Assembly (NCBI GenBank): GCA_005877205.1
Contig: VBPL01000031.1
Coordinates: 1 to 33,414, forward strand
Length of the DNA stretch: 33,414 nucleotides
Source: Nitrososphaerota archaeon
GTDB lineage: Archaea > Thermoproteota > Nitrososphaeria > Nitrososphaerales > Nitrosopumilaceae
Direction: 5' to 3'
Each line of letters opens with the position of its first letter. Positions within the stretch are counted from its first letter, which is position 1. A program made the position numbers and the translations under genes. Of this stretch, positions 13,702-25,623 are shown piece after piece. A model generated the notes under the pieces. That model was not told the origin of the DNA. It searched no databases and worked only from the letters and a program-made list of their open reading frames with translations.

Positions 13702-14666
13702 CTGGTTTTACTCCTGATATCCTTAACAGCATTAGCTATATGAATTGATGTTATACCATGTTTTTGTAGCAGCAATGAAATTTCGCTGTCTCTTGCTGAT
13801 TCACCGAATTGGTCTCTTACTCCTATTCGTCTCATCGGTACGGGATATGTCTCAGAAACAACCTCAGAGACTGCAGAGCCGAAGCCCGCTAAGATATTGT
13901 GTTCTTCACTTGTAACTATTCCACCTGTCTCACGTGCTGCCTTCTCTATAAGGCTAGCATCTATCGGTTTAATTGAGAACAAATCTATCACTTTGCATGA
14001 AATTCCTTCTTGTTTAAGAGAATCAGCTGCTTCTAGCGCCATCTTTACAGTAATCCCACAAGAGGCGATGGTGCAATCTGAACCATCCCGAAGTATTATC
14101 CCTTTGCCAATTTCAAATTCTTGCTCTCTTGAATGTACAAGTGGAGTCTTAGATCTGGCCATTCTCATGTAGAATGGTCCATGCACTTGAGAAATTAGCC
14201 TGATGAGTTTCTCTACTGCCACAGCATCAGCGGGTATTAACACTTTGATGTTAGGGATTACTCTCATTATAGCAATATCTTCTATTTGCTGATGCGAGCC
14301 TCCGTCTGCACCGACGGTTAGGCCACCATGGGAGACTACCATCTTTACGTTTAATCCATTTTGGCCGTTTCTTGAAGGATATGCTATGGCATTACGGATT
14401 TGATCGACACATCTACCTGGCAAGAACACCGCGTATGTACTAGCAAACGGAATTTTTCCTTCATTAGCAAGGCCTGCTGCAATAGTAATAAGATTAGCTT
14501 CTGCAATTCCAATATTAAAAAATCTATTTGGAAATTTTTTTCCGAATGGTCTTGTTTTAAGAGAATCTGTTGTATCTGCACCCACTACTACAACATTTGG
14601 GTTCTCCTCTCCGATCTTGATGAGAGTTTCTCCATAAACTGTTCGCATATCTGTCATTTCGGTCAT
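13698..14666 (-). CDS. transketolase, C-terminal subunit
   Basis: This 322-residue protein carries the pyrimidine-binding and C-terminal domains of a split transketolase. Visible features are the TPP-activating Glu in NIGIAEANLITIAAGLA (E56), the substrate/TPP loop FASTYAVFLPGRCVDQIRN, SHGGLTVGADGGSHQQIEDI and IPADAVAVEKLI. It needs the N-terminal subunit encoded immediately upstream (four-base ATGA overlap) to form the active site. Starts at residues 1, 4 and 7 are all Met; the first is taken because of the overlap. Confidence 0.95.
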   Translation of the reverse strand: MTEMTDMRTVYGETLIKIGEENPNVVVVGADTTDSLKTRPFGKKFPNRFFNIGIAEANLITIAAGLANEGKIPFASTYAVFLPGRCVDQIRNAIAYPSRNGQNGLNVKMVVSHGGLTVGADGGSHQQIEDIAIMRVIPNIKVLIPADAVAVEKLIRLISQVHGPFYMRMARSKTPLVHSREQEFEIGKGIILRDGSDCTIASCGITVKMALEAADSLKQEGISCKVIDLFSIKPIDASLIEKAARETGGIVTSEEHNILAGFGSAVSEVVSETYPVPMRRIGVRDQFGESARDSEISLLLQKHGITSIHIANAVKDIRSKTR

Positions 14667-16330
14667 ACAAAACCTGCCTCCTTTGCTATCTGCAAAAGTT
14701 CTAGTTTTTTCTTTCCTACTTCATGAAGGTCTATCCACTTGTTTACAAGTTCTGTTCCTCCAAGACTATATGCCTTGTGTATCAAAAGTTTTCTTCTTGC
14801 GTGCATCAATCTTTTTCTAAACTCGGCAATGGTCCCGCGAACATCCTTTTGTTCTATTATAGCGCTACCACCGACGAATACTCTTGCGCCATCCAAAAAG
14901 CACGATTCAACGTTTGATAAATCAACCCCTCCATCAGCCTCTATGAGACCTTCAAATTTTCTCTCAGCAAGGAATTTGGCAATTTTTTGTGTTTTTTCGT
15001 GCGTCGATTCTATGTACTTTTGACCTGATTTTCCTGGAACTACGGACATCACTATGAATTGATCCAAATCTGGAATGAATCTCTCTGCCCAAGAGGGTAA
15101 TTCAGTTTCCGGATTTATTGCCAGACCTACACTCACCTCATTTGATCTGAGTACGTCATGAATCTCGCCGAAACTTGATTCATCACATACCTCCGCATGA
15201 ACAGTGATTATATCACAACCAGCATCTACGTAGTTCTTTACTTTCTTGACTGGTTCATTTATCATTAGATGTCCATCGAAAGGAATCTGGGTTACTGGCC
15301 TAAGCTGTCTTATCTTTTCATGATCAAATGTCTTGTTTGGCACAAACATACCATCCATAACGTCAAGGTGAATAAAGTCAGCTCTACCATGAACAGCTCT
15401 CTTAACCTCGTTTTCTAAGTTCGCCATATCCCCAGCTATTATTGATGGTGCTGTCAGAAATTGACAGTCAATCTCAAGTTCGATTATAGGAGAGAACTGC
15501 GGGTTAGGAGCAACGCCGTGCCATTTTGGATTATCTTCCATATGTTCGACTGATTTTCCCTTTATCGTCCGTGCAACTATAATCGAAGGAGTCCCTTTTG
15601 TCTGTAATGCAGAGTTTACTGCCTTGACAATTTGTTCTATACGATGTCCGTCAATTTCTAACACGTTCCATCCAAATGATCTCCACTTGTCACCTACTTT
15701 CCATCTTGCCGCATTCTTCCACATCTCTGATATATCATCTCCAATCAATTCTTCATCTAGTGGCATAACCCTCTCGGTATAGTCGTCTTGTTGAATGAAA
15801 TTTCGATCTAGGAAGACGGTGATATTATCCAATTTGAATTTTGATGCTGCCATTGCTGCCTCCCATACTTGCCCTTCATCAGATTCGCCGTCGCCTATTA
15901 TAGTGTAAATATGGTGCTTCTTATCGTCGATTCTTGCGGCAAGGGCAATACCAATAGAAAATGAAAGCCCTAATCCAAGCGAACCGCCACAAAACTCTAC
16001 ACCGGGACATTTGTAGTCAGGATGACCTTGCAATATGCTTTCGAATTTTCTCAGACTTTCAATTTCAGATTTGTCAAAATAACCTGCCACTGCAAGATTA
16101 GAGAAAAGTCCTGGGGAAGCATGACCTTTTGATAAGACTAATCTATCTCTGTCTGGCCAGAGGGGGTTTTTTGGATCGTATCGCAAGTATTTGTAGTACA
16201 TACATCCCATCATTTCGGCCATAGAGAAGGAACCTCCAGGATGACCAGATCCTGCGCTAGTTGTTCCTCTTATGACAAGTTTTCTTGCTTCGCGTACTCT
16301 TTTTAGAATATGATAGTAATTTAGGCCCAT
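14663..16330 (-). CDS. transketolase N-terminal subunit fused to ribulose-phosphate 3-epimerase
   Basis: The 555-residue protein is a fusion in one uninterrupted frame. Residues 1 to about 282 form the TPP-binding half of transketolase: TSAGSGHPGGSFSMAEMMG, SKGHASPGLF, and the TPP motif GDGESDEG (146-153) with Asn in FLDRN (about 177), ending near KWHGVAPNP. Residues about 289-508 form a complete ribulose-phosphate 3-epimerase: APSIIAGD, IHLDVMDGMFVPN (H321, D323), FDGHLMI (H354), MSVVPGKSGQ and EADGGVD (D466). These match the four metal-binding positions of the family. A basic 47-residue tail follows. Split transketolase N-subunits usually end near residue 280. The fusion would couple Ru5P/Xu5P interconversion to transketolase, and transketolase C-subunit and transaldolase genes follow with ATGA overlaps. 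Confidence 0.95.
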   Translation of the reverse strand: MGLNYYHILKRVREARKLVIRGTTSAGSGHPGGSFSMAEMMGCMYYKYLRYDPKNPLWPDRDRLVLSKGHASPGLFSNLAVAGYFDKSEIESLRKFESILQGHPDYKCPGVEFCGGSLGLGLSFSIGIALAARIDDKKHHIYTIIGDGESDEGQVWEAAMAASKFKLDNITVFLDRNFIQQDDYTERVMPLDEELIGDDISEMWKNAARWKVGDKWRSFGWNVLEIDGHRIEQIVKAVNSALQTKGTPSIIVARTIKGKSVEHMEDNPKWHGVAPNPQFSPIIELEIDCQFLTAPSIIAGDMANLENEVKRAVHGRADFIHLDVMDGMFVPNKTFDHEKIRQLRPVTQIPFDGHLMINEPVKKVKNYVDAGCDIITVHAEVCDESSFGEIHDVLRSNEVSVGLAINPETELPSWAERFIPDLDQFIVMSVVPGKSGQKYIESTHEKTQKIAKFLAERKFEGLIEADGGVDLSNVESCFLDGARVFVGGSAIIEQKDVRGTIAEFRKRLMHARRKLLIHKAYSLGGTELVNKWIDLHEVGKKKLELLQIAKEAGFV

Positions 16331-25480: not shown

Positions 25481-25496
25481 TTTGAATTGCTTCAAA

Positions 25497-25507
25497 AGGA
25501 TTTTATG
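25497..25507 (+). promoter_or_regulatory. TATA box of tRNA-Glu
   Basis: AGGATTTTATG is centred about 29 bases upstream of the tRNA 5' end at 25532. Confidence 0.45.
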
Positions 25508-25531
25508 GATAAGAAACAGGATGCAGTGCGG

Positions 25532-25623
25532 GCTCCAGTGGTGTAGACCGGTCAAGCATATCGGCCTTTCAAGCCGGGGATCCCGGGTTCAAATTCTAAA
25601 CGATGAAAATCCCGGCTGGAGCA
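25532..25623 (+). tRNA. tRNA-Glu (TTC) with a 16-nt T-loop intron
   Basis: The cloverleaf has acceptor GCTCCAG/CTGGAGC with discriminator A, D arm GTGT...GCAT, anticodon arm TCGGC-CTTTCAA-GCCGG (anticodon TTC), variable GGATC and T stem CCGGG (25583-25587)/CCCGG (25611-25615). The T-loop TTCAAA|T is interrupted after position 59 by 16 bases (25594-25609). Removal restores a 76-nt tRNA with loop TTCAAAT. CCA is not encoded (A73 is followed by CCT). Confidence 0.93.
25594..25609 (+). other. tRNA-Glu intron at position 59/60 with BHB motif
   Basis: The pre-tRNA folds into an exact bulge-helix-bulge. The T stem CCGGG:CCCGG is the outer helix and UUCA (exon, 25588-25591):UGAA (intron, 25604-25607) is the 4-bp central helix. 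AAU bulges of three bases lie on each strand (25592-25594 and 25608-25610), with an inner UC:GA stem and loop UAAAC. Cutting after the second bulge base on each side releases UUCUAAACGAUGAAAA. This is a non-canonical intron position; most tRNA introns are at 37/38. Confidence 0.85.

Follow-up and report, generated by a model that had tools for sequence, protein, structure and literature searches.

A conserved 16-nt bulge-helix-bulge intron at position 59/60 of tRNA-Glu(TTC) in a Nitrosotalea-group archaeon

The tRNA-Glu(TTC) locus

The window analysed here, a stretch of DNA of 33,414 nucleotides, derives from an ammonia-oxidising archaeon that belongs to the Nitrosotalea group and is placed in or near the genus Nitrosotalea by a scan of named genomes (35 records). 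Its tRNA-Glu(TTC) gene, the features of which are collected in Table 1, is flanked by a divergently oriented TENA/haem-oxygenase-like gene and, on the other side, by a polyprenyl synthase gene. The gene runs from G1 at 25532 to A73 at 25623, does not encode CCA, and has the acceptor stem GCTCCAG:CTGGAGC, while the T stem, CCGGG:CCCGG, encloses a loop with 16 additional bases. The upstream block CAAAAGGATTTTATGGA is likely, judging from its conservation, to be the BRE/TATA promoter of the tRNA. Elsewhere in the window, a single open frame (14663-16330, minus strand) fuses a transketolase N-terminal domain with a ribulose-phosphate 3-epimerase domain and adjoins the transketolase C-terminal part.

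With default settings, neither ARAGORN nor Rfam calls the tRNA-Glu(TTC) gene in the window, where only a tRNA-Met is reported, and the gene is absent from the 37 matches of a whole-genome Rfam tRNA search. Deletion of 25594-25609 restores a standard tRNA, which ARAGORN names tRNA-Glu(TTC), of 76 nt.

Table 1. Coordinates in the window of the tRNA-Glu(TTC) gene, its intron and associated elements.
Feature	Position	Strand	Basis
Conserved CAAAAGGATTTTATGGA block	25493..25509	+	Near-invariant among congeners; bases between block and gene vary
tRNA-Glu(TTC) gene, precursor form with intron	25532..25623	+	ARAGORN recognises the spliced form; only Glu(TTC) found in the genome
5' exon, positions 1-59	25532..25593	+	Closely similar in 30 of 36 congeners
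Anticodon TTC	25568-25570	+	Within the 5' exon
T stem, 5' strand CCGGG (outer helix h)	25583..25587	+	Pairs with 25611-25615
Central helix of the bulge-helix-bulge, exon strand UUCA (positions 54-57)	25588..25591	+	Covariation of exon and intron strands, with U55-A replaced by C55-G in some genes
5' bulge AAU, predicted cut after 25593	25592..25594	+	Exon AA fixed, third base T/A/C among relatives
16-nt intron UUCUAAACGAUGAAAA at 59/60	25594..25609	+	Intron-less orthologues lack it at exactly these junctions
16-nt intron, letters TTCTAAACGATGAAAA	25594..25609	+	Sequence reading
Inner helix h' (UC:GA) closing a 5-nt loop	25595..25603	+	3-6 bp in relatives' longer introns
Central helix, intron strand UGAA	25604..25607	+	Covariation
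3' bulge AAU, predicted cut after 25609	25608..25610	+	Exon T60 fixed, second base A/G/C/T among relatives
3' exon, positions 60-73	25610..25623	+	Sequence reading
T stem, 3' strand CCCGG (outer helix h)	25611..25615	+	Pairs with 25583-25587

Structure of the intron

The insert folds into a strict bulge-helix-bulge (BHB) motif, in the order T stem, AAU bulge, UUCA:UGAA helix, AAU bulge and inner helix. The two 3-nt bulges lie on opposite strands with the 4-bp helix between them, flanked by the outer and inner helices. The hBHBh' of the initial annotation, with its AAU bulges, UUCA:UGAA helix and T stem as outer helix, stands as drawn, with an inner helix of just 2 bp (UC:GA closing UAAAC).

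To set this fold against chance, 200,000 random 16-mers from the window were inserted at the 59/60 site and scored for a strict BHB with an inner helix of at least 2 bp, in any register giving the same mature tRNA. Since 0.38% of these random genomic 16-mers and 0.29% of shuffled introns form such a motif, the BHB of one sequence on its own is moderate evidence for an intron. Folded by itself, the extended T arm gains little stability over its alternatives, with the central pairs at a probability of 0.34-0.38. The folding energy of the whole precursor is of no help as support for the BHB, the cloverleaf with the BHB reaching -27.3 kcal/mol versus -31.7 kcal/mol for the unconstrained optimum.

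Conservation and covariation

At the level of sequence, the case for an intron is made decisive by its conservation, its covariation and its precise absence in orthologues. Of 36 congeners, 30 match the 92-base query over its full length, with differences in the T arm falling almost entirely within the intron loop, and the named-genome scan found the intron-bearing gene in Nitrosotalea devanaterra, N. bavarica and strains TS and FS. A covariance model was used to search 300 genomes of the order, with sequences read for 48 of them. In this search, many genera of the same family carry a Glu gene of 90-96 bases, while others have solely genes of 75-76 bases. Introns at 59/60 measure 14-20 nt across the family and are longer in other families.

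A shuffle test on close relatives is uninformative for the BHB, as the pairs hardly vary there, and the wider set of 58 distinct Glu genes that carry a 59/60 insert was used instead. Position 55 is paired as U-A in 51 of these genes, as C-G in five and as U-G in two, whereas the pair at position 56 is invariably C-G. The change to C55-G occurs in five genes from three genera, pointing to a structure kept by compensatory change. Mismatches in the central helix are confined to one other family with longer introns, and given its one mismatched central pair, homology of the introns at that depth is uncertain. In a further family of the order, two tRNA-Asp(GTC) genes (L179 and L188, read by eye) have an insert at 59/60 with the helix UUCG:CGAA, in which the intron appears to follow the exon base at position 57, making them a parallel to the Glu intron. 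Among relatives, the first intron base is T, A or C and the last is A, G, C or T, while exon bases 59 and 60 are constant; the cut register is thus fixed independently of the fold.

Clean absence complements these observations. Among 60 chosen genomes, 20 have a 76-base Glu gene from which exactly the predicted intron is missing, at the orthologous locus beside the same polyprenyl synthase gene, and these intron-less orthologues equal the predicted spliced sequence. Together with the conservation and covariation, these junctions bear out the 16-nt T-loop intron at 59/60, its sequence and its BHB register as first annotated.

Within the genus, tRNA-Glu(TTC) occurs with two forms of anticodon arm and variable loop (25561-25582 in the window, and relatives), one with TCGGC...GCCGG and a 5-nt variable loop, the other with TGGGA/GGGGA...TCCTA/TCCTC and 4 nt. 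The remaining exon sequence is identical between the two forms, and gene conversion is a possible origin.

tRNA-Glu genes and other interrupted tRNA genes in the genome

For the initial annotation, a second, intron-less tRNA-Glu(TTC) serving as the functional copy would have spoken against the intron. No such gene was found in the genome (98 contigs, from which a copy could be missing); the other Glu gene found, on contig C48, is an intron-less Glu(CTC). Congeners G006 and G035, each complete in a single contig, likewise show no full Glu(TTC) match besides the gene with the intron. Genes in the window use 257 GAA and 129 GAG codons among 6,223, and with GAA this frequent a working tRNA-Glu(UUC) is needed.

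A pattern search for other T-loop BHB introns in the same genome returned the tRNA-Glu(TTC) intron as its sole match. Two further tRNA genes of the genome appear to carry inserts elsewhere. One, at G000:C57:61813-61916 (L035), is called Pro(AGG) by ARAGORN and reads by eye as a tRNA-Gln(CTG) whose D loop holds an insert, CCAAACAATTTTTGGG, of about 16 nt and which has a further intron at 37/38. The other, at G000:C46:1021-1128 (L036), is called Trp(CCA) by ARAGORN and resembles a tRNA-Asp(GTC) in which a long insert precedes the anticodon and the T stem contains an A-C mismatch.

Splicing endonuclease and ligase

The genome has two PF01974 genes, of 177 and 189 aa, and a pair of such genes is present in 19 of 20 genomes checked. 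The 177-aa alpha subunit matches the catalytic subunit of Aeropyrum pernix over its whole length (PDB 3p1z_B, E 2.3e-44) and keeps the active-site Tyr, His and Lys. Its alignment with A. pernix EndA is gapless through the specificity loop, where Lys35 occupies the position of Lys44 of the Crenarchaea-specific loop; the 12 other alpha subunits retrieved from the order all have this loop lysine too. In A. pernix, this loop and its lysine confer broad specificity (PMC6379350). The 189-aa protein is without the histidine and is likely the structural (beta) subunit. The classification of the endonuclease genes suggested at the outset thus yields a two-subunit enzyme, predicted to be of the heterotetrameric (alpha-beta)2 type with broad specificity, and an RtcB ligase is encoded as well. 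The likeness to the A. pernix (alpha-beta)2 endonuclease (PDB 3p1z, 3ajv) lies in the catalytic Tyr/His/Lys and the loop position of Lys44; the beta subunit, in contrast, is closer to full two-domain endonuclease subunits (M. kandleri, M. jannaschii) than to its A. pernix counterpart. The beta gene (G000:C48:3231-4450) lies about 1 kb from tRNA-Glu(CTC), and a tRNA-Glu-like match is similarly near the beta gene elsewhere in the order (genomes G038, G061 and G142).

The initial annotation reasoned from the intron position to a broad-specificity endonuclease. An enzyme of the predicted type was indeed found, although position alone is no proof that it is needed, because the motif is a strict BHB. 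Likewise, the intron is short, as had been remarked, but not at the limit of functional size, given that relatives reach 14 nt and published archaeal tRNA introns range from 11 to 175 nt (PMC2738675).

Proposed explanation and alternatives

The locus is almost certainly the single-copy tRNA-Glu(UUC) gene of a Nitrosotalea-group archaeon, interrupted at 59/60 by a genuine 16-nt archaeal BHB intron; we infer that its precursor is expressed, cleaved and ligated. In the precursor, UUCA of the T loop (54-57) and UGAA of the intron would form a helix that stacks on the T stem, each strand contributing one 3-nt bulge. In both bulges, the two-subunit endonuclease would cleave 3' of the second base; ligation of the halves by RtcB would then give a normal 7-nt T loop, UUCAAAU, such that the spliced T arm would read UUCAAAUCCC.

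That standard tools overlook the gene might suggest a pseudogene or inactivated copy with a chance insertion, another tRNA-Glu(UUC) being in use. However, the lack of any other Glu(TTC) in this genome or in the complete congeners, the conserved exons, the conservation and covariation of the insert and the commonness of GAA codons leave this reading a negligible probability. It is also highly improbable that the insert is retained and the tRNA functions with an enlarged T arm. The T arm could fold into a single long hairpin, and inserts in the family keep to a narrow size range (14-20 nt), but the exact identity of intron-less orthologues with the predicted spliced sequence argues against retention, as do an insert bounded by the BHB cut positions in nearly every relative with free variation inside, and the dedicated endonuclease and ligase encoded.

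A different question is whether the genuine BHB intron is kept for a function, such as splitting a 3' integrase attachment site or aiding modification. The hypothesis that introns block integration has been published (Randau and Soll, as cited in PMC3218864), and 59/60 lies within the usual 3'-half integration target. Against this, the intron has been lost repeatedly in the family, and mobile elements of Thaumarchaeota integrate in intron-containing tRNA genes, in 10 of 39 cases (PMC6563490), so that a role as an integration barrier is unsupported and a functional reason for its retention is unlikely. The intron is probably tolerated rather than useful.

Relation to known archaeal introns

Non-canonical tRNA introns have been described across archaea, Thaumarchaeota included (PMC3218864, PMC8450103), and two-subunit splicing endonucleases of Thaumarchaeota are likewise published (PMC4090602, PMC3218864); the tRNA-Glu intron is therefore a well-supported but ordinary case of an already known type. 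tRNAscan-SE 2.0 models the non-canonical introns of Thaumarchaeota, of which 107 were counted in their genomes (PMC8450103), and the present intron, short, outside 37/38 and with a BHB at its junctions, does not differ from that set in kind. With the T-arm introns described for archaeal tRNAs (PMC12397907), it shares the T-arm site and a splicing endonuclease that has a specificity loop and is predicted to cut it; it differs from them generally in that its BHB is strict and is conserved across one ammonia-oxidising family. What the analysis adds is the depth of the intron in the order, its covariation and its repeated clean losses at one locus.

Evolution of the intron and its implications

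On a tree of the neighbouring polyprenyl synthase protein, explaining the intron state takes six changes, and well-supported branches force at least five of these; the sample was picked to include both states, and its proportions are not frequencies. The tree method itself does not distinguish gain from loss, and bootstrap support is not fully settled. Given that intron-bearing species are spread over nearly all genera sampled, the intron probably dates far back in the family, with several clean losses since. The comparison with the tRNA-Glu of relatives, suggested in the initial annotation as a way to date the intron, shows it in 30 of 36 congeners and in many genera of the family. Slippage between flanking repeats was rejected as the sole route of loss: recombination between the AAAATC repeats (read from one genus's introns) would leave one extra A, and since no intron-less gene has it, slippage alone would be insufficient unless selection removed the misfits.

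The intron-bearing species L261 and the pair L262 and L264 sit within an otherwise intron-less clade of the neighbouring-gene tree. With two intron-bearing lineages so placed, regain by transfer is conceivable, although loss and regain of the intron at one orthologous locus within a single family is, from these sequences, rather unlikely. If true, transfer or recombination would have restored the intron, and the intron state of tRNA genes would move between species.

In practical terms, default ARAGORN and Rfam tRNA searches overlook essential tRNA genes in such genomes. For the evolution of tRNA introns, the locus offers a clean natural series, with constant neighbours and the same intron position, which holds intron-bearing and exactly intron-less orthologues within one archaeal family.
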